Below the pieces are notes generated by a model, which did no database searches, was not told the DNA's origin, and saw only the letters and a program-made list of their open reading frames with translations. From contig JABUEW010000007.1 of assembly GCA_013314855.1 (NCBI GenBank), positions 1 through 58,801 on the forward strand: a DNA stretch of 58,801 bases. Direction: 5' to 3'. The translations under genes and the position numbers were made by a program. This document shows positions 1-14,798 of this stretch, piece after piece. The stretch's first letter is position 1; each line of letters opens with the position of its first letter. This DNA is from Bacillota bacterium. GTDB lineage: Bacteria; Bacillota; Clostridia; Acetivibrionales; DUMC01.

Positions 1-46
1 AGATGCATTTAGATGCATTTTTTAAAAGTGGTGCACCCATAACTTA

Positions 47-193
47 TTAATTTACGATTATTCCCCGGTTATACTTAGCTTTTGTTGCCTGACCGCCTCT
101 GATATGCCTTTCAGCTTTATTTTCATCAAGTACTTCCCTTACATATTTTGCAAGTTCAGGGTTTATGCATGAAAGTCTTTCAGTAACATCTTT
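47..193 (-). CDS. spoIIID: SpoIIID, C-terminal half of an interrupted gene
   Basis: Read on the minus strand, this stretch encodes 48 residues, starting KDVTERLSCINPELAKYVRE, continuing through ENKAERHIRGGQATKAKY, and ending at a TAA at 47-49. This is the conserved C-terminal half of SpoIIID, the mother-cell DNA-binding regulator of sporulation, including its basic C-terminal helix region. It has no start codon of its own: the first base of its lysine codon is the last base of a 6-bp core at 193-198. The N-terminal half lies 14.2 kb away at 14421-14535. Joined at the core, the two give an 86-residue protein, close to the family length of about 85-93. The identity is clear. Whether the gene is ever rejoined in the cell cannot be seen from the sequence. 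Confidence 0.93.
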   Translation of the reverse strand, partial: KDVTERLSCINPELAKYVREVLDENKAERHIRGGQATKAKYNRGIIVN

Positions 194-1802
194 ATGTATT
201 GTATTTAGTATTGGTGTCGGTTTTATCCTCAGGCGGCATCAGGAACGTGCCGGACAATAGAACGGGGAAGCTTACCCCTTCCAAGTCTTCATTGATGTTG
301 AAATGCACATAAATTTCTTCAGTAGACATAACCCGGATCTCCTTGATGATTTTCTTCAAATCGGTATTGTCTATGTTTTCCGTAAATTTAAAATTGTCAA
401 AGGCCTCAATAAACTTCTTAAGGCTGTCCTTAATCTGCCTGTTAAGCTCTCTGGTTTTGTCCGTGCTGTTAAGCTTAAAGGAAAGCCTTTCTATTTCGGC
501 ATTGATGGGAATCATGTCCTGCTTTGCTTCCTCCATGGTAATCAGCCCGTCCACAGCCAGCCTTTTGAGCCGTTCACGCTTGCTCTGCAATTCCTCAAGC
601 TGTTCCCTGGCTTCATCAAGGTCATAGCCTTCATTTTCCCTGATATATTCTCTAACCAAGGTGTTGCACTTACGCTCCACAGCATCAAAGAAGGCGGCCT
701 TATCCTTTATAAGATAATTGAAGAGCCTGTCCAAACCGTCTTTGAGCCAATCTTCATTTACCCTGACGTACTCAGACTCACAGCGGTTTTTCCCATAGGC
801 GCTTCTTTTGGAGCAGGTCCACCAGACATACAATGGGCTGTGTTTTGAATGCCTTCTCTGATAGCGCCGGAAGGAAAAGCCGCATGACCCGCACTTAATC
901 AAATTGGAAAACAGGTGCTTGTCGCTTCTCCGGGTAAACGTACCCTCATAAGCTTCGGCGTTCAGTTTCATCTGCTCCTGCGCCTTATAGAACTGCTCGT
1001 CTGAAATTATGCGGAATTCCGGTCTTTCAACGATATACCATTCGCTTTCAGGGTTATTTGCCCTTTTGTTCGTGAATATATCAATGCTGCTCTGCTTCCC
1101 GTTGATTACGCGGCCGATGTAAATTTCGTTTTTCAGCACTTTGCCGACAGTATTCTGCGACCAGTTGCAGTTGGGCTTGCCGTCCTTCAGCTTTTTGGTC
1201 TTTACCCTGTTCTGATACAAGTATGAGGCAATCCTCGCCATGCCCCATTTTTCCTCCGTATAGAGGTCAAAAATTCTCCTGACCCATTTGCTTTCTTCAG
1301 GATTAGGCACAAGGGTATATCTGTCGATCCTGTCATAGCCGAAAACAAAGTTGGGCACCCGCCCTTTTTCCTTGCCGGGCTGCTTGCCGAACTTAACCTT
1401 CTCGGAAATGCGCTGGGATTCGTTCTCGGCAAGCATCGCCATCAGATTTAAGGTAAAGCTGTCGATATCCTTACCCTCGCCCATATTGACAAGGTGCAGG
1501 CTAACCCCGTATGAATTCAGCTCCCTAGTAACGGTGATAAAGTCAAGAGTGTTTCTGAAAAGCCTGCTGATGTCCTTTACATACAGCTTCTGGAATTCGC
1601 CCCGTTTGGCCGCTTTGCGCAAACGCTGCAGGTCTTTCCTGTTTTGCATTTTTGTAGCAGACTTGCCCTTGTCGCAATATATGGCTACCAGCTCATCGCC
1701 TCTACTAGGTATGTAGCTCTCAAAAAATTCACGCTGGTTTTCCAGGGAGCTTTTTTGTTCTTCTTTATCTGTACTGACTCTGATATAGGCGGCAGCCTTC
1801 AT
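192..1802 (-). CDS. Large serine recombinase (site-specific integrase/excisionase)
   Basis: From the ATG at 1802 this encodes 536 residues. That ATG follows AGAAAGG at a 9-nt spacing; a GTG at 1835 would add 11 residues. The resolvase catalytic domain is at the N-terminus (AAYIRVSTDKEEQKSS, nucleophile Ser10). It is followed by a recombinase domain, a zinc-ribbon segment (CGSCGFSFRR, then CSKRSAYGKNRC) and a coiled-coil-rich C-terminus, the usual order for large serine integrases. The gene abuts the attachment core. The last base of its TAA stop (192) comes from spoIIID rather than from the element, so the reading frame would change on excision. It probably catalyses both insertion and, with a directionality factor, excision, restoring spoIIID. 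It lies 61 nt downstream of a 60-residue ORF in the same direction. Confidence 0.93.
   Translation of the reverse strand: MKAAAYIRVSTDKEEQKSSLENQREFFESYIPSRGDELVAIYCDKGKSATKMQNRKDLQRLRKAAKRGEFQKLYVKDISRLFRNTLDFITVTRELNSYGVSLHLVNMGEGKDIDSFTLNLMAMLAENESQRISEKVKFGKQPGKEKGRVPNFVFGYDRIDRYTLVPNPEESKWVRRIFDLYTEEKWGMARIASYLYQNRVKTKKLKDGKPNCNWSQNTVGKVLKNEIYIGRVINGKQSSIDIFTNKRANNPESEWYIVERPEFRIISDEQFYKAQEQMKLNAEAYEGTFTRRSDKHLFSNLIKCGSCGFSFRRYQRRHSKHSPLYVWWTCSKRSAYGKNRCESEYVRVNEDWLKDGLDRLFNYLIKDKAAFFDAVERKCNTLVREYIRENEGYDLDEAREQLEELQSKRERLKRLAVDGLITMEEAKQDMIPINAEIERLSFKLNSTDKTRELNRQIKDSLKKFIEAFDNFKFTENIDNTDLKKIIKEIRVMSTEEIYVHFNINEDLEGVSFPVLLSGTFLMPPEDKTDTNTKYNT
193..220 (-). other. Attachment half-site attL (core plus 22-nt element arm)
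   Basis: The core is at 193-198 and the element-side arm at 199-220. On the minus strand the arm begins CCGACACCAAT and lies inside the last codons of the recombinase gene. Its partner arm at 14399-14420 is the inverted repeat of this one: the outer 11 nt are identical and 16 of 22 positions match. Chromosome-side sequence below 193 belongs to spoIIID. Confidence 0.85.
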
Positions 1803-1863
1803 CTGAATCATCCTTTCTGTTACGTTTGTTCGCACTCGGGTGGTGAATTATAACGAAGTGCGT

Positions 1864-2046
1864 CTACTCCGTCAATGAGTCAACTAAACTCTCATTGCCC
1901 CGGCTCGTAACATTGGTTTGATTTATGGCTTCGACTGCCGAATTTATAATGCTCCTTGCAACTCCAAAGGACAGAGCCTCCAATATCAGGTCTAAGATGG
2001 CAGGATCAAGACTCTCATTTGTGATATTCATTTGTGCTTGTCCCAT
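1864..2046 (-). CDS. 60-residue hypothetical protein; candidate directionality factor
   Basis: The ORF begins MGQAQMNITNESLDPAILDL and has 60 codons. It is preceded by a G-rich ribosome site (GGGGGTGGGGAG) directly before the ATG at 2046; an internal ATG at 2031 is an alternative start. The frame stays open upstream to 2298, but no ribosome site supports that extension. The protein is small, acidic at both ends and helical-looking, and I do not recognise a family. It lies immediately upstream of the recombinase on the same strand, behind a sigma-E-like promoter. Serine integrases need a small partner for excision, and such partners are often encoded next to the integrase, so a directionality-factor role is possible. 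That role rests on position only. Confidence 0.5.
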   Translation of the reverse strand: MGQAQMNITNESLDPAILDLILEALSFGVARSIINSAVEAINQTNVTSRGNESLVDSLTE

Positions 2047-2076
2047 CTCCCCACCCCCAACCTTGTCTCTATGTTT

Positions 2077-2107
2077 AATGTATATTAATGAAGGGGTGGT
2101 TTTATTC
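2077..2107 (-). promoter_or_regulatory. Candidate sigma-E (mother-cell) promoter
   Basis: On the minus strand, GAATAAA (2107 to 2101) and TATACATT (2084 to 2077) are separated by 16 nt. The usual sigma-E pattern is GHATAHT, about 15-16 nt, then SATACAHT, so each box departs at one position. A start site near 2070 would leave a leader of about 24 nt containing the ribosome site of the 60-residue ORF. This is a motif match by eye only. Confidence 0.4.
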
Positions 2108-2647
2108 TCTGATAAACTTACTGCGTTACGAGTTTTCTTTTTTTCACTGTCAAGGTTATTGGCTGGAGGTAGCACATATCCCGATCCTCTATGTCCTTTA
2201 TAACAGATAACTCTTAGAAATGAGGCTAACCATACGGAATTGTTGAAATTTATTAACACACATAAAACAGTCCAAATATCCAAAATAAAAGCTGGCAAGC
2301 ATTTTTACACCTACCAGCCCTTAAGATTAACTATGAAATTACATTCTCTCTTGAGAGGTATATATGAAACTTACTTTTTAAAATATAAACTTCCGAAGCC
2401 TATATTTATGTTTATATTTAACTCACATTTACTCTCATATTGAAATTCCTGAGTACAGATAAATATGAAGCCTTTTCAAAGCTAAGATAAAAATGATTCA
2501 AGCTGTCCATGTATAAAAATAGCCCGCATTAGATATATCCTGTTTTTCAGAGAATATCTTTGCGTTCTCGGATATTTTTATTGAGATATGGACATATGCA
2601 TGATAAAATATTATTTAAATTTAACAGAATTGTGCGAGGTGAAATGC
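2108..2647. other. Intergenic region between recombinase module and defence operon
   Basis: About 540 bases with no convincing gene; the short ORFs here lack ribosome sites and family resemblance. It is AT-rich and must hold the rightward promoter for the HTH/helicase operon. A short AATATC/GATATT inverted pair followed by T residues (about 2555-2580) and the near-palindromic stretch around 2587-2605 are possible operators for the HTH protein, but neither is strong. Confidence 0.4.
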
Positions 2648-2857
2648 ATGGCCGTAAGTTACAAAAAACTTTGGAAGCTATTGATTGATAAAGACATGAA
2701 GAAAAAGGATTTACGTGCAGCAGCTGGAATCAGCCAAACGTCCATAGCTAAATTAGGTAAAAATGAAAATGTAACAACTGATGTGCTTGTGAAGATTTGC
2801 AAAGCTTTAAAATGTGATATTTCAGATATTATGGAAATTACAAATGACGAAGATTAG
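2648..2857 (+). CDS. XRE/Cro-type HTH transcriptional regulator
   Basis: A 69-residue protein starting at ATG 2648, with GAGGTG seven nt upstream. An upstream ATG at 2588 has no ribosome site. The helix-turn-helix (about residues 20-50: KDLRAAAGISQTSIAKLGKN) is followed by TDVLVKICKALKCDISDIME, the signature of the small YozG/XRE_N26-like family. It is 56 nt upstream of the helicase gene on the same strand and is the likely local repressor of the restriction/defence operon. Small XRE regulators of this kind commonly control restriction systems so that methylation is established before cleavage. Confidence 0.88.
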   Translation: MAVSYKKLWKLLIDKDMKKKDLRAAAGISQTSIAKLGKNENVTTDVLVKICKALKCDISDIMEITNDED

Positions 2858-2913: not shown

Positions 2914-5900
2914 GTGGAAGTATTCAATAATATAACGAAAATTGTCAAGGATGACTTAACGCAGGTTATCATGCCGGGAAGCCGGATTTCTGTTGCGGCT
3001 GCCTGTTTTTCAATTTATGCCTATAAGGAATTGAAAGCGCAGCTGCAGAAAATTGATTCCATGCGGTTTATCTTTACATCCCCCACGTTCGTCGCCGAAA
3101 AATCGCCAAAAGAAAAGCGGGAATTCTACATTCCACGATTACATAGGGAACGCAGCCTTTACGGGACAGAATTTGAAATAAAGCTAAGGAACGAGCTTAC
3201 CCAAAAAGCTATTGCCCGGGAATGTGCGGATTGGATTCGCAAAAAGGTAACCTTCAAATCAAATTCCACCAATTCCGGGATGAGTGGATTTCTTAACATA
3301 CAGACAAACGACCAGCAGCTGACTTACCTGCCGATAAACGGGTTTACAACTGTTGATATTGGCTGCGAGCGCGGCAACAACATCTATAATATGGTGAATA
3401 AATTTGAGGCTCCCTTCAGCAGTGAATATATCCGCCTGTTCGACAGCATATGGAACGATGAAAGCCGTCTTCAGGATGTGACCGAAGAAGTAATCGAATC
3501 CATATCGGCTGTTTACCAGGAAAACCCCGCCGAGCTTATATATTTTATGACCCTATATAACATTTTCAGCGAATTCCTTGAGGATATTTCCGAAGATATG
3601 CTGCCCAATGAAGCAACCGGTTTCAAAAACAGCGTTATCTGGAACAAACTCTACAGCTTTCAGAAAGACGCCGCCCTGGCAATCATTAATAAGCTGGAGC
3701 AATTCAACGGCTGCATACTGGCGGACAGTGTGGGCTTAGGCAAAACCTTCACAGCCCTCGCCGTAATCAAGTACTATGAAAACAGGAACAAAAATGTCCT
3801 TGTTCTTTGCCCTAAAAAGTTAAAGGATAACTGGCTAACTTATCGTGGTAATTTAATCAACAACCCGCTGGCCAAAGACCGCCTGCGCTACGATGTTCTT
3901 TTCCATACCGATTTGTCTCGCGAACGAGGTGATTCTGTTATCGGCTTGCCCCTCGACCGTATCAACTGGGGCAACTACGACCTCGTCGTTATCGATGAAT
4001 CCCATAATTTCCGCAATGGCGGCGCCGTATCAGGGGAATACGGAGAAAAAGAAAACCGCTATCTCAGACTGCTCAATAAAGTCATCCGCCCCGGCGTAAA
4101 GACAAAGGTTTTAATGCTCTCCGCCACCCCGGTGAATAACCGTTTTTATGACCTGCGCAACCAACTGGCCTTAGCCTACGAGGGGAAGTCAGAGTTAATC
4201 AATGAAAAGCTGAACACCAAAACAGACATTGATACTATTTTCCGGCAAGCTCAAAAGGTATATAACGCCTGGAGCAAGCTGCCGCCTGAATCCCGTACAA
4301 CGGCTTCCCTGCTTAAGCAGCTGGATTTTGACTTTTTTGAAGTTTTGGACAGCGTAACCATTGCCCGCTCCCGTAAACATATCCAGCGCTACTATGACAT
4401 ATCCGAAATAGGCAGTTTCCCGGAGCGCAATAAACCGTTATCCTTGCGACCCAAACTGACAACGCTGAACAATGCCATCAATTATGAACAGATTTATGAA
4501 CAGCTCATGCAGCTTAATTTGTCCATCTATACGCCAACAAACTATATCCTCCCCAGCAGGCTTGGCAAATATATCGATATGGATTCAAAACACAGCAGGC
4601 AGCTTTCGCAAAAAGGGCGCGAGGAAGGCATCCGCCGTTTGATGAGCATCAATCTGCTTAAGAGAATGGAAAGCTCGGTGCATTCATTTAAGCTGACTGT
4701 AAAACGCATCTATGAACAAATACATTACACTCTGGAGCTGATTGACAGCTTCCGGTCCGGCGAGGAAGTTACCGTGCAGGATGTTCATGACTTTGGCGAA
4801 CTTGATCTGGATGATCAGAATATCGATATTATCAACGTCGGCAGAAAATTTAAAATTGATTTGCGCGATATGGATTATCTCTCCTGGCAGCGGGATTTGT
4901 CTGCCGATCTGGAAGTTTTGGAACTCCTGATTTTGATGATTGAAGATATTACTCCGGAGTATGATTATAAACTGAATGAGCTTTTGCGGGTTATCGAGAA
5001 GAAAATCACAAAACCCATTAATCCGGATAATAAAAAAATCATTATCTTTACGGCCTTTGCCGATACGGCGGAGTACCTGTATGAAAATGTCAACCCTTTC
5101 GTAAAGAACAAATTCGGACTGGACTGCGCCCTGATTACAGGGTCAGTTGAGGGAAGAACCACCATACCAAAATTCCCTGCCGATATGAATACAATTTTGA
5201 CCTGTTTTTCTCCAATTTCCAAGGAGAAGGACCTGGTAATGCCGAACAACCACAACAATATTGATATTCTGATTGCCACCGACTGCATTTCCGAAGGACA
5301 GAACCTGCAGGACTGCGACTGGTGCATCAACTACGACATCCACTGGAACCCGGTGCGCATTATTCAGCGTTTCGGTCGTATTGACCGTATCGGCAGCAAA
5401 AACAAGGTGATTCAGCTCGTTAACTTCTGGCCGGATTTAGCACTGGACGACTACATAAACCTGAAAGAACGCGTGGAAGCGCGGATGCGGATTTCCGTAA
5501 TGACTGCCACCGGCGATGACGACTACATCAACCAGGACGAAAAGGGCGATCTGGCCTACCGTCGGGCACAGCTTGAAAAACTGCAGAATGAAGTGGTTGA
5601 CCTTGAGGACATGACCACAGGCATTTCCATTATGGACCTGGGGCTGAATGATTTCAGGATGGACTTGCTCTCCTATATCAAAGAGCACCCTGATTTAGAC
5701 CGGACTCCCTACGGCATTCACGCCGTGATACGGGGAGAAAAGCCCGGAGTAATATTTATCCTGAAGAACGTGAATAAAGCCATAAACATTGAAAACCAAA
5801 ACCGCCTTCACCCTTTTTACATGGTATACATCGGGGATGACGGGGAGGTCATCTGCAATCATTTGGAGCCGAAAGCCACCTTGGATATTATGCGCCATCT

Positions 5901-6147
5901 CTCCCGGGGCAAAACAAAACCCGATATGGAAGCCTGCCATATTTTCAACCGGGAAACCAACGACGGCAGGAAGATGGATCGCATATCCCAGCTGCTCCGG
6001 CAGGCAGTGTCCTCAATCATAACCGTTAAAGAAGAAAAAGATATAGACAGCTTTTTCGGGAATGGTGAAACTACCTTCCTGACCGGCAACATCTCCGGCC
6101 TTGACGACTTTGAACTGATCTGCTTTATGGTGGTGATGGGATGCTGA
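2914..6147 (+). CDS. SNF2/SF2-type helicase with N-terminal PLD-like domain
   Basis: 1077 residues from a GTG start with GGGGGTG upstream. Residues about 1-200 resemble a phospholipase-D-like nuclease/binding fold, but I see no clear HKD motif. The helicase core follows: Walker A DSVGLGKT (Lys277), DESH (361-364), SATP (403-406), and a C-terminal RecA-like domain ending in QRFGRIDR (818-825). It overlaps the DUF4391 gene by 7 nt. This is the first gene of a tightly packed four-gene operon with a methyltransferase and a type III Res-like enzyme. The probable role is ATP-driven translocation or remodelling on invading DNA. Helicases of this kind are seen in DISARM- and Hma-like defence loci, but no exact system is assigned here. 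Confidence 0.88.
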   Translation: MEVFNNITKIVKDDLTQVIMPGSRISVAAACFSIYAYKELKAQLQKIDSMRFIFTSPTFVAEKSPKEKREFYIPRLHRERSLYGTEFEIKLRNELTQKAIARECADWIRKKVTFKSNSTNSGMSGFLNIQTNDQQLTYLPINGFTTVDIGCERGNNIYNMVNKFEAPFSSEYIRLFDSIWNDESRLQDVTEEVIESISAVYQENPAELIYFMTLYNIFSEFLEDISEDMLPNEATGFKNSVIWNKLYSFQKDAALAIINKLEQFNGCILADSVGLGKTFTALAVIKYYENRNKNVLVLCPKKLKDNWLTYRGNLINNPLAKDRLRYDVLFHTDLSRERGDSVIGLPLDRINWGNYDLVVIDESHNFRNGGAVSGEYGEKENRYLRLLNKVIRPGVKTKVLMLSATPVNNRFYDLRNQLALAYEGKSELINEKLNTKTDIDTIFRQAQKVYNAWSKLPPESRTTASLLKQLDFDFFEVLDSVTIARSRKHIQRYYDISEIGSFPERNKPLSLRPKLTTLNNAINYEQIYEQLMQLNLSIYTPTNYILPSRLGKYIDMDSKHSRQLSQKGREEGIRRLMSINLLKRMESSVHSFKLTVKRIYEQIHYTLELIDSFRSGEEVTVQDVHDFGELDLDDQNIDIINVGRKFKIDLRDMDYLSWQRDLSADLEVLELLILMIEDITPEYDYKLNELLRVIEKKITKPINPDNKKIIIFTAFADTAEYLYENVNPFVKNKFGLDCALITGSVEGRTTIPKFPADMNTILTCFSPISKEKDLVMPNNHNNIDILIATDCISEGQNLQDCDWCINYDIHWNPVRIIQRFGRIDRIGSKNKVIQLVNFWPDLALDDYINLKERVEARMRISVMTATGDDDYINQDEKGDLAYRRAQLEKLQNEVVDLEDMTTGISIMDLGLNDFRMDLLSYIKEHPDLDRTPYGIHAVIRGEKPGVIFILKNVNKAINIENQNRLHPFYMVYIGDDGEVICNHLEPKATLDIMRHLSRGKTKPDMEACHIFNRETNDGRKMDRISQLLRQAVSSIITVKEEKDIDSFFGNGETTFLTGNISGLDDFELICFMVVMGC

Positions 6148-6767
6148 ATTTCCCCAGTAAAGCCTTTGTCGGGCGAAACATGCCCAAAGAAGCATTTTAT
6201 AAACATCTCAACTTAAGCAGCGAGCTTAGAGAAAAATTCGTTTCCGACGTAAAACGCCTGGTTCTGGAGTACAAGCTGTCGCCGGATACTTTAAACCTCG
6301 AAAAGAACGGAGAGATTACTGAAATTCTTGTACTCTCCATTGAACTGAAAAAGCAGGAGCTTGACTACCGGCTGGTGGAAAGCATAGCCCGGCAGAACGC
6401 CCATAAGCTGCTTTTCCTGCTCAAATTCCAGGAGCAGGGACAGCTCGCGCTTTATTACGGCAAGCTTTACAAAACAGACTGGATGCTGCTCAAAGACCTA
6501 GGGCTGGAAGCCAGAGGGCTAAATCTGGACAGCATATGGGAAGGGTTTATTGAGCAGATTGCCCTGCAGGAAAATATTGTTTCATCCTGCAACAGCCTTA
6601 CTGTTGACGAAAAATTAAAGAAGCAGGATACAATCCTGAAACTGCAAAAAGAAATTGACAAACTGGAACGCTTATCCCGCAGCGAAAAGCAGCCTAAAAA
6701 ACGTTTTGAACTGTTTACCCGCCTTCAGGGTTTGAAGAAAAAATTAGCTGAGGAAAAAGGAGAATGA
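6141..6767 (+). CDS. DUF4391 family protein
   Basis: 208 residues. The N-terminus (FPSKAFVGRNMPKEAFYKHL, then TLNLEKNGEITEILVLSIEL) matches the DUF4391 pattern. The C-terminal 50 residues are a charged predicted coiled coil (LKLQKEIDKLERLSRSEKQP). It is translationally coupled at both ends, overlapping the helicase by 7 nt and the methyltransferase by 4 nt (ATGA). No enzymatic motif is evident. The family habitually sits beside helicase and methyltransferase genes, so it is probably a structural or adaptor subunit of the same complex. Biochemical function is unknown. Confidence 0.8.
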   Translation: MLNFPSKAFVGRNMPKEAFYKHLNLSSELREKFVSDVKRLVLEYKLSPDTLNLEKNGEITEILVLSIELKKQELDYRLVESIARQNAHKLLFLLKFQEQGQLALYYGKLYKTDWMLLKDLGLEARGLNLDSIWEGFIEQIALQENIVSSCNSLTVDEKLKKQDTILKLQKEIDKLERLSRSEKQPKKRFELFTRLQGLKKKLAEEKGE

Positions 6768-8668
6768 GCATGGACAGGCTGAAAATGCACTCTGTAAACA
6801 AAGTGGATGAAAATATCAAAAAGATTACGGAACTGTTTCCCAATACTTTAACCGAGGTCATCAAAGGCTACAGGGATGACGGGACTCCCATCATCGAGCG
6901 CGCCATTGATTTTGACGTGCTGCGGCAGGAGCTGTTAAATGTCGTGGTGGAAGGCCCTGAGGAGCGCTATCAATTCACCTGGCCGGATAAAAAAAAGTCC
7001 ATTCTGCTGGCCAACGCCCCCATCGCAAAAACCCTGCGCCCCTGCCACGAGGAAAGCGTGGATTTTGACAAGACTGAGAATCTGTATATTGAAGGCGACA
7101 ATCTGGACGCACTCAAGCTGCTGCAGGAAACTTACCTTGGAAAGGTGAAGATGATCTACATAGACCCGCCATACAATACGGGCAATGACTTTATCTATGA
7201 GGATGACTTTGCTCAGAGTGCAGACGAGTATCTTGAAAACAGCGGGCAGTTTGACGAGGACGGCAACCGCCTGGTGCAGAACACCGAAAGCAACGGCCGT
7301 TTTCATACCGACTGGCTGAATATGATGTACCCGAGGCTCAAGCTGGCAAAGGATTTGCTGAGTGATGATGGGGTTATTTTTATAAGCATAGATGATAATG
7401 AAGTGGAAAATTTGAAAAAGATATGTAATGAGATATTTGGAGAAAAGAATTTTGTATCAATCATTAATTGGAAAGGTAGAGGAGGTAGACAAGACAGCAA
7501 ATATTATGCAGTTATTCATGAGTACATTCTATGTTATGCTAAAAGAATTAATCAATTTGTAGCTGGAGAAGAAAGAATAATTGGTGGCAACTATCCAAAA
7601 TATGATGAAGTAAAAAAACGCTATTATAAAACTCAATTAGCAAGAAAATGGGGGTCAAATAGCCGTCGCAGCGATAGACCTAATCTATTTTATCCAATAA
7701 TAGCTCCCGATGGGACAGAGCTTTATCCAATGTTATCTCCTACGGAAGAAGGACGTTGGCGTTGGGGAAAATCACGCATGGAAAAAGAACTACAACAAGG
7801 TAATATTGAGTTTTCTTATAGCAATGGACAATGGGTTGCATACGAAAAAATCTATGCACCACTTGAAGGTGAAGAAAAAACAAAAAAATATAACACATGG
7901 ATAGATGACATTGGAAATGGGACAGATGTAATAAAAAAACTTTTTGGCTCCGCAGTATTTGATTATCCAAAATCACCTGAACTTTTATCGAAATTTATAC
8001 GAATGGCAAATGTAGATGACGACGACATCATTCTCGATTTCTTCTCCGGCTCTGCTACCACCGCCCATGCAGTCATGCAGCTAAACGCCGAAGATGGCGG
8101 CAACCGCAAATTCATCATGGTGCAGCTCCCTGAGCCTTGCAACGAAAATTCCGAAGCCTACAAAGCAGGCTATAAAACCATCGCTGAAATTGGCAAGGAG
8201 CGCATCCGCCGGGCAGGCAGAAAGATACTGGAGGAGCACCCGGAGCTTGCCAGAAAACTGGATATAGGTTTCCGCGTTCTGAAGGTGGATTTCAGCAACA
8301 TGGAGGATGTTTATTACAGGCCGGACGAATACACTCAGGATTTACTCTCCTTCCTGACAGACAATATCAAGCCCGATCGCACCCCTGAAGACTTGCTGTT
8401 CCAGGTTATGCTGGATTTGGGCGTGCTTTTATCCAGCAAAATCGAAGAAATGGTCATCGGCGGCAAAAAAGTGTTTAATGTAGCGGACGGCTACCTGATG
8501 GCCTGCTTTGACAAAGACGTCACCGATGAGGTGGTTAGGGAGATTGCCAAAAAGCAGCCCTATTACGCTATTTTCCGTGACAGCGGCATGGCCAGCGACA
8601 GCGTCGCCACCAACTTTGAGCAGATTTTTGAAACCTACAGCCCGTCAACGGTGAGGAAGGTTCTGTAA
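6764..8668 (+). CDS. Beta-class DNA methyltransferase (type III Mod-like)
   Basis: 634 residues. Motif IV DPPY (134-137, in IDPPYNTGNDF) precedes the S-adenosylmethionine motif FFSGSA (426-431), the beta-class order typical of type III Mod N6-adenine or N4-cytosine methyltransferases. The segment between them (about residues 203-420, nt 7370-8020) is the target-recognition domain. It is visibly AT-richer than the rest of the gene, suggesting a replaced specificity domain. The start ATG overlaps the DUF4391 stop and follows AAAGGAG. It probably protects host DNA and supplies sequence recognition to the helicase-nuclease encoded next. The exact base and site methylated cannot be told. Confidence 0.93.
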   Translation: MSMDRLKMHSVNKVDENIKKITELFPNTLTEVIKGYRDDGTPIIERAIDFDVLRQELLNVVVEGPEERYQFTWPDKKKSILLANAPIAKTLRPCHEESVDFDKTENLYIEGDNLDALKLLQETYLGKVKMIYIDPPYNTGNDFIYEDDFAQSADEYLENSGQFDEDGNRLVQNTESNGRFHTDWLNMMYPRLKLAKDLLSDDGVIFISIDDNEVENLKKICNEIFGEKNFVSIINWKGRGGRQDSKYYAVIHEYILCYAKRINQFVAGEERIIGGNYPKYDEVKKRYYKTQLARKWGSNSRRSDRPNLFYPIIAPDGTELYPMLSPTEEGRWRWGKSRMEKELQQGNIEFSYSNGQWVAYEKIYAPLEGEEKTKKYNTWIDDIGNGTDVIKKLFGSAVFDYPKSPELLSKFIRMANVDDDDIILDFFSGSATTAHAVMQLNAEDGGNRKFIMVQLPEPCNENSEAYKAGYKTIAEIGKERIRRAGRKILEEHPELARKLDIGFRVLKVDFSNMEDVYYRPDEYTQDLLSFLTDNIKPDRTPEDLLFQVMLDLGVLLSSKIEEMVIGGKKVFNVADGYLMACFDKDVTDEVVREIAKKQPYYAIFRDSGMASDSVATNFEQIFETYSPSTVRKVL

Positions 8669-8683
8669 AAAGGGGGTGACACA

Positions 8684-11600
8684 GTGAAATTTCAGTTTAA
8701 AATCCAGCAATACCAAACAGAAGCCGTAAACAGCGTCGTCAATATCTTTACAGGGCAGCCCTTTTCCGACCGGGTCAGTTATGTACGTGATTTGGGCATT
8801 AACAAGAAAAACCAGTATATCCAGGTATCCTTGTTTAATGAGCCTGAATCTCCGGATGACGATGCTACCATCGGCTTTGAAAACGCCCGGCTTGTTCTGA
8901 GCCCCGGGCAGCTTCTGCAAAACATCCGCAACATGCAGGCCCGCAACAACATCAAGCAGTCCGAGACTTTGGTCAGCCACCTGGGGGCCTGCAGCCTGGA
9001 CGTTGAAATGGAAACCGGCACAGGCAAAACCTATGTCTACATAAAGACCATTTTTGAACTGAACAAGCGGTACGGCTGGAGCAAGTTTATTGTGGTTGTT
9101 CCTTCCATTGCCATCCGCGAAGGGGTATATAAGACTTTTCAGATTACCCAGGATCACTTCATGGAGCATTACGGCAAGAAAGCCCGGTTTTTTATCTACA
9201 ACAGCAGCAATTTAACAGAACTTGACAATTTCAGCGCAAGCAGCGGCATAAATGTCATGATTATCAATATACAGGCCTTTAATACTTCCTTGAAAGAAGA
9301 TGCCAGGAGCAAGGAAGCCCGCCGCATTTATGAAAAACTGGACGAATTCGGCAGCCGCAGGCCTATTGATGTTATTAAGGCCAACCGCCCCATCCTCATT
9401 CTGGATGAGCCGCAGAAAATGGGCGGGGATAAGACTCAGAAAGCGCTGGCTAATTTTAATCCCCTGTTCTGCCTGAACTACTCGGCCACCCATGTCCAGC
9501 ACCATAACCTGGTCTATGTCCTGGATGCGGTGGATGCTTACAATAAACGGCTGGTAAAGAAAATCGAGGTCAAAGGATTTGAAGTCAAGAATCTCAGAGG
9601 AACCGACAGGTATTTGTTCCTTGAGAATATCATTATCTCACCCAAGAAGCCGCCGATGGCCAAAATTGAACTGGAAATCAAATACCAGAAATCAATCAAC
9701 CGCGAGACACGCATTCTCGGCGTGGACGATGACCTTTATTTTGTATCCAACGAAATGGAACAGTATAAGGGATACCATATCAGCGATATTGACCCCATAC
9801 GCGGCACGGTAACCTTTACCAATGGTGTGGTATTGTCCCGGGGAGAAGTTATCGGTGATGTTTCAGAAAAGGACCTGCGCCGGATCCAAATCCGGGAGAC
9901 CATTATTTCGCATTTTGAAAAGGAAAAACACCTGTTTGAACTGGGAATCAAGACTCTTTCCCTCTTCTTTATCGACGAGGTGGCCAAGTACCGTAAGTAT
10001 AACGAAGCAGGGGAAGAAGTCAACTCCGAATACGGGGAAATGTTTGAGCAGGAATATGTAAACGTGCTGAACGATTACATTACTCTGGAAGATACGCCTT
10101 ACATCCGTTACTTGAAAAGCATTGATCCCCATGAAACTCATGCTGGATATTTCAGCATTGACAAGCACGGCCGCAAGGTGGACAGTCCTATCAAGCGGGG
10201 AAGTGATGAAAGCGATGATATTTCCGCCTATGACCTGATTCTTAAAGATAAAGAACGCCTCCTAAGCTTTGAGGAACCGGTGCGCTTTATTTTTTCCCAC
10301 TCGGCCCTGCGGGAAGGCTGGGACAACCCCAATGTTTTTCAGATCTGCACTTTAAAGCATGGCGGTGCAAGCCCCACTCAAAAACGCCAGGAAGTGGGCC
10401 GCGGCCTGCGCCTGTGTGTAAACCAAAGAGGAGAGCGGATGGACATGGAAAAGTGCGGCGATTCCGTCCACTCCATCAACGTGCTGACGGTTATCGCCAG
10501 CGAAGGCTATAAAAATTTTGTCGCCGATTTGCAGACCGGTATTAAAGAAGCCTTGTATGAACGGCCCACAAAAGCAACAGTGGAATACTTTACGGGCAAG
10601 ACCGTTATGGTCGGAGAGAAAACGCATATGCTTAATATGCAAGAGGCCAGGGACATCTACCGCTATCTCATTAAGAACGATTATATTGACAACAACGACG
10701 GCATTACAGAAAGCTACCGGACAGACCTGGAAAACAACCGGCTGGCTCCGCTGCCTGAATCCCTCGCACCCTTTGGGGAAAGTGTGCATCAGCTTATCCG
10801 GAGCATCTTTGACGAAAGCGTCTTAAGCAGGATGATAGAAAACGGCAATAAAACCAAAATTCCGGAAAATGCCCTCAACGAGAATTTTTACAAGAAGGAA
10901 TTCCAAACCCTTTGGAATTATATTAACCATCAGTATGCCTACACAGTCGAGTTTGACAGCCGGGAACTAATAGAAAAAGCCATTAAACATATCAATGAAA
11001 ACATGTACGTTTCCCAGCTTCAATACATGGTTACCGTCGGCAGGCAGACAGACGAGCTGGACGGAAACGCTATTGCCCTCGGAAACAGCTTTGTCCGGGA
11101 AAATGCCAGGACGGAAACCCTGAAGCACTCCGAAACAAGCCAGATTAAATATGACTTGATAGGTAAAATTGCCGAAGGCACTACTCTCACCCGCCGCACA
11201 GTGGCGGCCATACTGGCAGGTATTGAAAAGCCGGTATTTGCCTGCTTCAAGCAGAATCCTGAAGAGTTCATTGCCAAAGCAATACGCTTAATAAAAGAAC
11301 AAAAGGCTACCATGATTGTCGAGCATATTTCTTATGATCAGATTGAAAAGCAGTATGACAGCAGTATTTTCACCGCTGAAAAGGGAGCAAGTGATTTTAC
11401 AAAAGCATTCCGGGCCAAGAAAAACATCCAGGATTATGTATTTACAGACGGAACCGCTGAAAAGAGCATCGAACGCCGCTTTGCAGAAGATATGGACAAA
11501 GCCGACGAAGTCTGTGTCTATGCCAAGATACCGAAAGGCTTTGCCATTCCTACTCCGGTGGGTAACTACTCGCCGGACTGGGCGATTGCCTTTTATGAAG

Positions 11601-11788
11601 GTACGGTAAAACACATTTACTTCATAGCTGAGACCAAAGGGACAATGGAAAGCTTGAACCTGCGTCCTATTGAACAGGCAAAAATAAAATGTGCCAGAAA
11701 ACTTTTTAACCAACTATCAACAAGCAAGGTCAAGTATCATGATGTGGACAGCTACCAAAGTCTGTTAAATATTATGGGTAAGCTATAA
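8684..11788 (+). CDS. Type III restriction Res-like helicase-endonuclease
   Basis: 1034 residues from GTG 8684, preceded by AGGGGGTGA and lying 15 nt after the methyltransferase. SF2 motifs: TGTGKT (Lys115), DEPQ (241-244), REGWDNPNV, and QEVGRGLRL (arginine finger near 573). A C-terminal PD-(D/E)XK nuclease signature is visible: PDWA (Asp965) and AETKG (Glu983, Lys985). Length and order fit type III Res. With the Mod-like gene it could form a type III restriction-modification enzyme, but the helicase and DUF4391 genes are extra to that architecture. All catalytic motifs are intact, so the system looks functional. Confidence 0.92.
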   Translation: MKFQFKIQQYQTEAVNSVVNIFTGQPFSDRVSYVRDLGINKKNQYIQVSLFNEPESPDDDATIGFENARLVLSPGQLLQNIRNMQARNNIKQSETLVSHLGACSLDVEMETGTGKTYVYIKTIFELNKRYGWSKFIVVVPSIAIREGVYKTFQITQDHFMEHYGKKARFFIYNSSNLTELDNFSASSGINVMIINIQAFNTSLKEDARSKEARRIYEKLDEFGSRRPIDVIKANRPILILDEPQKMGGDKTQKALANFNPLFCLNYSATHVQHHNLVYVLDAVDAYNKRLVKKIEVKGFEVKNLRGTDRYLFLENIIISPKKPPMAKIELEIKYQKSINRETRILGVDDDLYFVSNEMEQYKGYHISDIDPIRGTVTFTNGVVLSRGEVIGDVSEKDLRRIQIRETIISHFEKEKHLFELGIKTLSLFFIDEVAKYRKYNEAGEEVNSEYGEMFEQEYVNVLNDYITLEDTPYIRYLKSIDPHETHAGYFSIDKHGRKVDSPIKRGSDESDDISAYDLILKDKERLLSFEEPVRFIFSHSALREGWDNPNVFQICTLKHGGASPTQKRQEVGRGLRLCVNQRGERMDMEKCGDSVHSINVLTVIASEGYKNFVADLQTGIKEALYERPTKATVEYFTGKTVMVGEKTHMLNMQEARDIYRYLIKNDYIDNNDGITESYRTDLENNRLAPLPESLAPFGESVHQLIRSIFDESVLSRMIENGNKTKIPENALNENFYKKEFQTLWNYINHQYAYTVEFDSRELIEKAIKHINENMYVSQLQYMVTVGRQTDELDGNAIALGNSFVRENARTETLKHSETSQIKYDLIGKIAEGTTLTRRTVAAILAGIEKPVFACFKQNPEEFIAKAIRLIKEQKATMIVEHISYDQIEKQYDSSIFTAEKGASDFTKAFRAKKNIQDYVFTDGTAEKSIERRFAEDMDKADEVCVYAKIPKGFAIPTPVGNYSPDWAIAFYEGTVKHIYFIAETKGTMESLNLRPIEQAKIKCARKLFNQLSTSKVKYHDVDSYQSLLNIMGKL

Positions 11789-12110: not shown

Positions 12111-12566
12111 TTGTATATCATGAGCAGTAATGTGACAAAAAAGGGCCATCCACATTTAACACATCAAATGGAAATGGCTTCTTACTTAGAACATATTAAT
12201 GCTTCACCTGCATATATTGATTGGGATGTTGATGATGGCGTTATTGAATTTCTGCCAACAATGAAATCAGACATCACTCTCCGGTACAAGGGTAAAACCC
12301 TCATTATTGACACCAAATATTATGAACACACGATGCAGGCAAACAGCTTTTACAATAGCCGGACGCTACATTCTCACAACATGTATCAAATTTTTACTTA
12401 TGTGAAAAACATGGATACCGCCAATTCTGGCAATGTAAGCGGCGTTCTGCTTTATGCAAAAACGGATGAGGAAATCGTACCGGACAATGATTATATGATG
12501 AACGGCAATCGCATAAGTGTTAAAACTCTTTTAAACCTATTTTGGCTTGTTTTGGAATATGTATAG
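12111..12566 (+). pseudogene. mcrC: McrC C-terminal remnant (5-methylcytosine restriction subunit)
   Basis: The frame encodes the C-terminal nuclease part of an McrC-type protein: DWDVDDGVIEFLPTMKSDIT, then TLIIDTKYYEHTMQANSF and LHSHNMYQIFTYVKN. The PD-(D/E)XK residues are recognisable (SDI, then DTKYY). Intact McrC proteins of this type are about 350-430 residues; here only about 150 remain. The N-terminal two-thirds are missing and the last residues (after ISVKTL) run out of the family frame. No mcrB is present. It is a leftover of another restriction locus carried by the element. Confidence 0.75.
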
Positions 12567-12692: not shown

Positions 12693-14042
12693 TTAGATTT
12701 CCAACTGCTTCAATGCCATCCCGATGAGTTTATCCGCATAATCGGCCATGAACATCGGGATATTCAGCAGATCATCGTCCAGCCGCAGATTGTTCAGTGA
12801 AAATCGGACACGCAGCTTGACCTTGTCACCGTATTTCTCTTTAAACTTCTTCAAACTTCTGCTTTCCACATTGCTCTCCGATTTTACCTCTACGGGCAAA
12901 ATATCGTTTTCTCTCTGAATCAGAAAATCCACTTCATACCGGGGATTGTCCATTGCCCAATATCGCGGCATTGCTTCAAACTGGTTTCTCAGAGCCTGCA
13001 GCACATAATTCTCGCTGAGCGCCCCCTTAAACTCAACGAACAGGCGGTTGCCTTCGCTGAAAGCGGAAGGCGCCAAAAGGGACAAACGTCGCAGCAGCCC
13101 CACGTCCACCATATAAAGCTTGAAGGCAGACAAATCGTCATAAGCAGAAATGGGCAGCCCCGGCGCGCTGCTGCGGTATATCTTATAAGTCAGGTTAGCA
13201 TCGCAAAGCCATTGCAGTGCGTCCTCGTATTCTCTGGCCCGGGCCCCTTCCTTGACAGCCTTATAAATGAATTTTTTGTTTTCCCTGGCAAGCTGGGAGG
13301 GTATTGACTTCCAAATCAATGATATCTTGGGGAAATCCTTAGGGTCCGGATGCTTGGCAAAATCCCTCTCGTATGCCCCCAGGATATTGGAAAGCACCTG
13401 CTGCATCAGCTCGACGTCCCGGTCTTCCGTCCAGGACCTGACAGACTCAGGCATCCCGCCGGTCACAAAATACATTTTGAGCTTTTCATAAAGTGGATTG
13501 AAGAATGCATCCGGAACAGCCTCAATCCTGTCCAAGCTGTCCATATAGGCAGCAAGATTGCCGTCGCCGTTGGCCATTAAAAATTCGATAAAGGTCATAG
13601 GCCCTATTTCCAAAAAGTCCACCTTGCCGACAGGAAAAGAGGCCGGCTTTGACAAGGCAATGCCCAAAAGTGAACCGGCGCAGGCCACATGATAGTGCGG
13701 CGTGTTTTCGCAGAAGTATTTGAGCGTATTCAAAGCATTAAAACATTCCTGAATCTCATCGAAAACAATGAGCGTATCCTCAGGCTTATCCGGCTTGATT
13801 GTCTGACCGCTTGCCATCATCAGGTTTTGCAGGATGCGTTCGACATCCTTTGTGTTTTCAAAAAACTGCTTGTATTCCGGGTGTTCGTCAAAGTTGAAAT
13901 ACGCAATATTTTTATAATAACGCCTGGCAAACTCCTTGAGCGCCCATGTCTTGCCCACTTGGCGCACGCCTTTCAAAATCAGTGGCTTGCGGTGCCTGGA
14001 GTTTTTCCACTTCAGCAAATCCTTCATGATCAGCCTTTCCAC
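12693..14042 (-). CDS. AAA ATPase with C-terminal DUF4143 domain
   Basis: 449 residues from a GTG at 14042 preceded by GGAGGTG at a 5-nt spacing. Walker A is GVRQVGKT (Lys31) and Walker B is LIVFDEIQEC (Asp95, Glu96). The C-terminal DUF4143 region carries a restriction-endonuclease-like motif (YEVDFLIQRENDILPVEVKS). The family is widespread as single genes in variable regions; its cellular role is poorly defined and often suggested to be defence- or toxin-related. It is transcribed toward the operon and has its own terminator. Three 17-nt repeats lie in its upstream region. It is the last cargo gene before the right attachment site. Confidence 0.9.
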   Translation of the reverse strand: MERLIMKDLLKWKNSRHRKPLILKGVRQVGKTWALKEFARRYYKNIAYFNFDEHPEYKQFFENTKDVERILQNLMMASGQTIKPDKPEDTLIVFDEIQECFNALNTLKYFCENTPHYHVACAGSLLGIALSKPASFPVGKVDFLEIGPMTFIEFLMANGDGNLAAYMDSLDRIEAVPDAFFNPLYEKLKMYFVTGGMPESVRSWTEDRDVELMQQVLSNILGAYERDFAKHPDPKDFPKISLIWKSIPSQLARENKKFIYKAVKEGARAREYEDALQWLCDANLTYKIYRSSAPGLPISAYDDLSAFKLYMVDVGLLRRLSLLAPSAFSEGNRLFVEFKGALSENYVLQALRNQFEAMPRYWAMDNPRYEVDFLIQRENDILPVEVKSESNVESRSLKKFKEKYGDKVKLRVRFSLNNLRLDDDLLNIPMFMADYADKLIGMALKQLEI

Positions 14043-14398: not shown

Positions 14399-14426
14399 CC
14401 GACACCAATTCTTAACACGGTATGTA
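14399..14426 (-). other. Attachment half-site attR (22-nt element arm plus core)
   Basis: The element-side arm is at 14399-14420 (plus strand starts CCGACACCAAT) and the core TATGTA is at 14421-14426. Joined to the left arm through one core copy it forms a 50-bp imperfect palindrome centred on a CA dinucleotide of the minus-strand core TACATA. That size and symmetry are expected of a large serine integrase attP. Confidence 0.85.
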
Positions 14427-14535
14427 CAGTAGATTTAGAGATTCCGAACTTTTTGGCTGCAGCCCTGACGGTACTTTTGTTTTCGATAATAAAATGTGCC
14501 AATTCAATGGCTCTTTCTTCAATATATTCCTTCAA
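14421..14535 (-). CDS. spoIIID: SpoIIID, N-terminal half of an interrupted gene
   Basis: From a TTG start at 14535, preceded by AGGGGG at a 9-nt spacing, 38 residues are encoded: MKEYIEERAIELAHFIIENK followed by STVRAAAKKFGISKSTVH. This is the helix-turn-helix half of SpoIIID, a sigma-E-dependent regulator that activates or represses many mother-cell genes and is needed for sigK expression in Bacillus. After His38 the frame enters the element, adds 29 unrelated residues and stops at 14332. A product made in the integrated state would therefore lack the basic C-terminal part. The rest of the gene is at 47-193. Together they give a normal 86-residue protein. Confidence 0.93.
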
Positions 14536-14798
14536 CTGCCCAAACCCCCTTTTTGGAACCACTGTTAAATGCATATTATTTTGTAAAAACATATATGTAT
14601 TAACCTGTCTCAATATTAATGGTTTATAAACATTTTGTATTACTACAGTATATATATGCCTGTTTATTAGCGCTTATGAGTAGCAATATGGAGGAATATA
14701 CTTTAAATATATTTACGGATTACTTGTGTATTAATATATAAGTATAGTAAAATAGTATTATAATCAGGCTAACTGGTAGAAAAATCAAATAGGATCGG

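Follow-up and report, generated by a model that had tools for sequence, protein, structure and literature searches.

Our analysis suggests that a short promoter-like site in this Bacillota genome, GAATAAA ACCACCCCTTCATTAA TATACATT on the minus strand (2107-2077, the reverse complement read directly), is probably a mother-cell (sigma-E) promoter controlling the trigger by which a 14.2-kb non-phage mobile element, lodged in the sporulation gene spoIIID, would be excised. The window analyzed, 58,801 bases long, is the whole of contig C7 of its genome. A first-pass annotation had pointed out GAATAAA, a 16-nt gap and TATACATT on this strand, and the letters are indeed there. Its further proposal, that they form a sigma-E-like promoter driving the small ORF and the recombinase of a developmental excision module, is supported in part: spoIIID is the interrupted gene, and the boxes ahead of the small ORF are conserved in relatives.

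Results

The SpoIIID family PF12116 is matched in two separate pieces, positions 35-79 at 68-202 and positions 1-38 at 14419-14532, both on the minus strand, and no other SpoIIID match over the family cut-off was found in the assembly, which comprises 252 contigs and is 96.6% complete. When the flanks are joined after the CA of TGTACA, they read as one continuous SpoIIID frame, ...SKSTVHKDVTERL..., and the element removed in this way measures 14,228 bp (Table 1). The exact crossover, at the CA, is assumed here, since both element ends share TACATA. The attachment-site arms at the two ends are inverted, and inverted arms are frequent in serine-integrase sites. At its start, the contig carries a doubled AGATGCATTT (window 1-20), and the downstream neighbour of spoIIID therefore falls outside the window. 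Among the nine element ORFs scanned, Pfam recognized no phage structural genes, and by its gene content the element is of a non-phage kind; eight of the nine were run through PADLOC, and several match defence families. As in skin-like elements, a split sporulation gene rejoins in frame, and a recombinase of its own is accompanied by paired attachment sites. We most likely have before us a new skin-like element, and no report of an interruption of its target gene was found in the open-access literature searched.

Table 1. Features of the element and of the two parts of spoIIID in the window.
Feature	Position	Strand	Basis or remark
3' part of spoIIID	47..194	-	PF12116 positions 35-79, E 1e-20
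Large serine recombinase	192..1802	-	ATG 1802, frame open to GTG 1835; Pfam Resolvase, Recombinase, Zn_ribbon_recom
Recombinase-side attachment site, arm CCGACACCAATACTAA	195..220	-	Near-identical arm in L019
Sigma-A-type promoter of recombinase, TTGACG-N17-TATAAT	1847..1875	-	11/12 bases match
Small ORF, 60 aa, candidate recombination directionality factor (RDF)	1864..2046	-	Sequence, homologues
GGACAAG (in TGGGACAAGC), SpoIIID-box-like	2037..2043	-	Near small-ORF start
Predicted start region and leader	2047..2076	-	G-rich Shine-Dalgarno-like stretch (sequence)
-10 box TATACATT	2077..2084	-	8/8 columns same in L017 and L019
16-nt spacer	2085..2100	-	8/16 columns same across window, L017, L019
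-35 box GAATAAA	2101..2107	-	7/7 columns same in L017 and L019; GAATAAT in L018
HTH_26 (Cro/C1-type) regulator	2588..2857	+	Pfam
SNF2-type helicase	2914..6147	+	Pfam; PADLOC HKD+Snf2
DUF4391 protein	6141..6767	+	Pfam
Type III DNA methyltransferase	6764..8668	+	Pfam, PADLOC
Type III restriction enzyme	8684..11788	+	Pfam, PADLOC; NCBIfam NF012027 397 bits, below cut-off 564
McrBC-like fragment	12111..12566	+	Pfam
AAA_14/DUF4143 ATPase	12693..14042	-	Pfam, PADLOC; homologue at same end of L019 element
Far attachment site, arm TTAAGAATTGGTGTCGG	14399..14423	-	Same arm in L019
5' part of spoIIID, TTG start	14423..14535	-	PF12116 positions 1-38, E 6.9e-15
Sigma-E-like promoter of spoIIID itself, TAATATT-N14-CATATATG	14590..14618	-	Matrix score 15.8

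In B. subtilis, the sigma-E consensus is KMATATT / CATACANT with a gap of 13-16. Set against it, the site shows two mismatches in the -35 box and one in the -10 box, rather than the one mismatch per box counted at first; namely, GAATAAA is without the final TT, and the 16-nt gap is long compared with the gaps of 13-15 in the spoIVA sites that entered the matrix described below. For C. difficile, the passages of PMC3789822 on sigma-E promoters give ATA-N16 and a 'classical' spacing of 16-18 bp, and the spacing of the window site corresponds to ATA-N18. TATACATT is also the -10 of the top-scoring site before spoIVA of the relative G803 (L039). Consensus sites equal to or better than the candidate number 55 in the window (both strands, gap 13-16), as compared with 54.6 expected (sd 10.0, 30 dinucleotide shuffles). 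The consensus match, taken alone, is at chance level and carries no weight.

Scoring with a weight matrix against shuffled sequence, a check proposed at the outset, gave a divided answer. The matrix combines the consensus with 24 hand-picked sites upstream of spoIVA, out of 29 loci in relatives, and we assigned its weights and gap penalties manually. The spoIVA loci were chosen by their best consensus site, with L032, L035, L040, L046 and L056 excluded (L046 and L056 although their score of 9.8 equals that of the included L030), as was the fragment L057; some of the matrix sites are more than 140 nt upstream of the gene and could be spurious. On this scale, the candidate outscores every other site within the 120 nt preceding the small ORF (p = 0.009, 1000 shuffles; p = 0.026 when the same test is widened to 200 nt), but its score of 9.56 is reached by 50 window sites. 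The best site before spoIVA of this genome is TAATATT-N15-CATATATT. spoIIIAA is counted among the sigma-E genes of C. difficile in the same passages of PMC3789822; upstream of it, no clean sigma-E site was found at 28 loci of relatives, the own genome included (L086 excluded). As for sigma-E itself, a sigE-family match is present in 5/5 element hosts searched (those of the window, L018, L019, G049 and G309) and lies over the curated cut-off in three, namely in the own genome (G000) and in two of the four other hosts.

A genome scan with the recombinase returned four loci. Three were kept, L017 (78%), L018 (63%) and L019 (86%), whose draft genomes bear the names Tissierellia, Clostridia and Peptococcaceae; L020 (29%, partial) was dropped. 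Searching the class added G049 (66%) and G309 (49%), with L018's record recurring as G062, and searching the phylum returned L019's record as G593; six distinct elements were thus compared (window, L017, L018, L019, G049 and G309). By rank, the recombinase was found in 1/2 genomes of the genus (its own), in 1/5 and 1/38 of two families (the centres themselves), in 4/391 of the class (its own included) and in 2/398 of the phylum (its own and L019's record). None was confirmed in viral_contigs, and in 470 phage and 462 plasmid records identity at the best-matching place was below 60% throughout. The recombinase leads directly into the 3' part of spoIIID in every one of the six elements but L017, whose contig stops at that point. 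The 5' part stands at the far end in L018 (an 11.1-kb element) and L019 (6.7 kb), both of which rejoin in frame; it is 20.6 kb away in G049 and on another contig in G309. With regard to cargo, the four ORFs scanned in L018 include one methyltransferase, the two scanned in L019 are one methyltransferase and an AAA_14/DUF4143 ATPase, and the two scanned in G049 encode a rubrerythrin-type and an HD-domain protein, which are not defence genes.

The boxes had been fixed in the window before these relatives were examined. Aligned on the -10, boxes and spacing are identical in the window, L017 and L019 in 15/15 columns, while identity elsewhere is 8/60 upstream (14/60 at best shifts), 8/16 in the spacer and 5/16 downstream. 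The naive chance of 15/15 box columns is 3e-12 at the local rate of 0.17 and approximately 3e-5 at the spacer rate of one half, the three being related loci with 205/300 identical columns at the recombinase start. What is more, the first base of the -35 box is where both blastn alignments, to L017 and to L019, begin, so that promoter, small ORF, recombinase and attachment site look like one cassette. The distance from the end of the -10 box to the start codon of the small ORF, an ATG in the window, is 30, 30, 33 and 32 nt in the window, L017, L019 and L018, respectively, and a G-rich Shine-Dalgarno-like stretch lies in between. At its position, L018 has GAATAAT-N14-CATAGATT (p 0.004), a better fit to the matrix than the window site; G049 has a good -10, CATACAAT, 29 nt before the start, with a poor -35 (p 0.13). 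Near the small ORF of G309, no sigma-E-like site was found (p 0.66), the best within 200 nt lying 171 nt upstream (p 0.079). Across the five other elements, the site is therefore exact in two, similar in one, present as the -10 only in one and absent nearby in one. Directly upstream of the promoter, at 2286-2323 on the minus strand, there is also a terminator-like hairpin of 17 pairs with a T-rich tail, which could insulate the cassette.

Protein coding does not explain the conservation of the block: in L019, the small-ORF frame meets a stop at the block edge and contains no ATG, GTG or TTG from there to the small ORF's own GTG, which excludes translation as part of a longer protein; moreover, substitutions are spread over all codon positions, with no third-position bias. 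Judging from these alignments, what sets the site apart from random sequence is its conservation and not its consensus match. The conserved promoter-like signal is real and most likely sigma-E dependent. One could argue instead that the block is an operator or accessory site for the small protein, the recombinase or the Cro/C1-type regulator, conserved as part of the recombination cassette; the partial conservation of the spacer, the sharp start of homology at the block and an operator-like inverted repeat, seen by eye within L017's sigma-A promoter, would all agree with this. However, L018 retains position and matrix fit despite a different sequence and gap, the block precedes both the start codon, by 30-33 nt, and the Shine-Dalgarno-like sequence, and no significant sigma-A site was found before the small ORF in any of the six elements (p 0.16-1.0). 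We consider the operator explanation unlikely and a sigma-E promoter the better account of the block.

Counting the window, five of the six elements have a version of the small ORF immediately before the recombinase, the homologues being 32-46% identical to the window's own; in G049 the position is taken instead by an HTH_17 protein of 61 aa. The small ORF belongs to no Pfam or NCBIfam family, its best PHROG has E 0.29, and it has no match in phages and none in solved structures below E 0.12; in none of these searches did it show a likeness to a known RDF. Structure prediction from five sequences gave a single long helix (pTM 0.43). From its place, which is by analogy the one that the RDF occupies in SPbeta and in C. 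difficile skin, we infer that it may act as an RDF. Most likely, the sigma-E-like promoter controls this small ORF, a probable RDF.

The recombinase, in turn, is preceded by TTGACG-N17-TATAAT, which ends 44 nt before its ATG (p 0.002). The same boxes and gap recur in L017 (44 nt, p 0.002) and L018 (43 nt, p 0.022), the corresponding site in G049 is weaker (p 0.15), and no such promoter was found in L019 or G309, so that it is present in 3/6 elements (window, L017 and L018). Between its boxes lies, by eye, an operator-like inverted repeat, ACGGGG...CCCCGT in L017 and weaker in the window (1847-1875, minus strand). Given that the recombinase has its own sigma-A-type promoter, the sigma-E-like promoter would serve mainly the small ORF, and the recombinase at most by readthrough. 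In this sense, the first-pass proposal of one promoter driving both seems to hold for the small ORF, and for the recombinase only as possible readthrough. A strong sigma-A-type promoter on the recombinase is also what one would expect if the element were an ordinary island that inactivated spoIIID and left it rarely, non-developmentally and from that promoter only, and serine recombinases of this general type occur widely, with 15 matches in this genome, the present one included. That said, both halves of spoIIID are intact and rejoin in frame in the window, L018 and L019, and the window's spoIIID promoter is kept, while a dead gene would presumably not long preserve halves and promoter. We therefore hold the island explanation to be quite unlikely, and developmental excision to be the better reading of the split gene.

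A SpoIIID match was found in 280 of the 391 genomes of the class. Twenty genomes were chosen among the matches listed, for odd scores or extra matches; both spoIIID halves are present and apart in eight of them (G060, G137, G049, G062, G309, G291, G299 and G358), a 3' half with a degenerate 5' match containing stops in two (G248 and G318), one half only in four and a whole copy in six. Counting the window's genome, spoIIID is split in at least 9 of the 280. The degenerate 5'-half matches, both from one genus and with three stops (G248:C27:37-183 and G318:C37:12649-12795), are perhaps decayed halves. More distant serine recombinases, unmatched at 1e-110 in the class search, run into the 3' half in G291, G235 and G299. 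Five recombinases beside other split halves (L091, L093, L094, L097 and L105) reach best matrix scores of 1.9-10.7 within 320 nt, as scored without shuffles; the highest, 10.74 in L091, is above the 9.56 of the candidate, at a distance of 223 nt. Two records from phage collections were examined: in L105 (MT838016.1, 2113-3760), which comes from human faeces and is entered as 'Bacteriophage sp.', a serine recombinase runs into a spoIIID 3' half, and in L106 no spoIIID was found. Finally, spoIVA is split in G137 (C1:2487075-2494442, positions 2-405 and 399-492) and in G060 (C2:27145-68041, positions 2-402 and 398-492), and this other early mother-cell gene seems to be a further host of elements.

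Discussion

The scheme that we propose combines the split gene, the conserved boxes and the two promoters with a sigma-E dependence, a directionality role, a cell-type timing and an excision that are inferred from them. In growing cells, the recombinase would be made from its own sigma-A promoter, and the element, lacking the directionality factor, would stay integrated. After asymmetric division, sigma-E, active in the mother cell only, would transcribe the 60-aa protein together with more recombinase by readthrough. Acting as directionality factor, the 60-aa protein would then allow attL x attR recombination, the element would leave, and spoIIID, rejoined in frame, would be transcribed from its own sigma-E promoter, while the forespore chromosome would retain the element. 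In other words, the conserved promoter-like site probably turns on the exit of the element only in the doomed mother cell, such that the gene is repaired in time and the element is retained in the spore.

As long as the element is in place, no SpoIIID can be made, and the trigger would have to fire without it. An element in spoIIID itself must thus be timed without SpoIIID. This opens the causal order of events in the mother-cell cascade to a test, and the element's anti-phage cargo is parked where sporulation would select for a working excision system. One could also think of sigma-K in place of sigma-E: its -10 consensus is CATAnnnTA, which TATACATTA fits with one mismatch, but there is, by eye, no AC at the distance of the sigma-K -35. 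A sigma-K or dual sigma-E/K promoter, as described for sprB in the SPbeta passages of PMC6957869, is very unlikely here, since sigma-K follows SpoIIID in the cascade and would come too late to rebuild spoIIID.

With sigma-E as the preferred factor, a GGACAAG near the start of the small ORF deserves mention. The B. subtilis SpoIIID consensus, as given in the relevant passage of PMC11180830, is TAGGACAAGC with the core GGACAAG, and the window sequence around it fits in 9/10. In four of the six elements, GGACAAG occurs between -30 and +15 relative to the small-ORF start, with shuffle probabilities of 0.0017-0.0083 in those four, probabilities that refer to a motif spotted after the fact and not preset; in L018 it sits in another frame. 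Between 250 nt upstream and 150 nt downstream of the small-ORF start, none of the six elements contains the C. difficile SpoIIID box KRTAACARK. A feedback in which SpoIIID switches the trigger off at GGACAAG is our guess. Taken together, it is conceivable, though we would only tentatively suggest it, that spoIIID is a recurrent home in Bacillota of mobile elements from more than one recombinase group, some with restriction or methylation genes, that in the present family the sigma-E trigger is independent of SpoIIID, and that restored SpoIIID binds GGACAAG and shuts the trigger off. If this were true, the circuit would be self-limiting, the product of the interrupted gene being the off-switch of its own repair.

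Among the known sporulation-gene-intervening elements, vfbin has a recombinase of the serine type. The two-promoter layout proposed here matches that of SPbeta and of C. difficile skin. In SPbeta of B. subtilis, which resides in spsM, sprA is under sigma-A and sprB under a sigma-E/K promoter, and common to both systems are an RDF gene (here a candidate) before a serine recombinase and a mother-cell excision (here predicted) that rebuilds a sporulation gene; however, SPbeta is, in the passages of PMC6957869 that concern it, an active phage with a stress-inducible promoter, a different target and an RDF promoter that also responds to sigma-K. In C. difficile skin, which resides in sigK, the passages of PMC5025042 place the recombinase CD1231 under sigma-A and the 72-aa RDF CD1234 under sigma-E, transcription of the latter beginning at a mapped site 14 bp ahead of the start codon; unlike the present element, it is prophage-like, and its RDF is also under SpoIIID control. 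The gin element of B. cereus (GirC/GirX), to follow the description in PMC5595907, is similar in being non-phage, in carrying restriction-modification genes and in lying within a small mother-cell regulator gene, but it has three recombinases, measures 28.6 kb and targets gerE. B. subtilis skin, vfbin and yin share with our element the intervention in a sporulation gene, and skin and yin also a serine recombinase, as the passages on them in PMC10747680 and PMC6957869 have it, but their targets are sigK, spoVFB and yabG, and excision of skin is under sigma-E plus SpoIIID. Indeed, excision of both skin elements is reported to need SpoIIID as well as sigma-E (PMC5025042 and PMC6957869, in the parts on excision), whereas here SpoIIID would arise only from excision.
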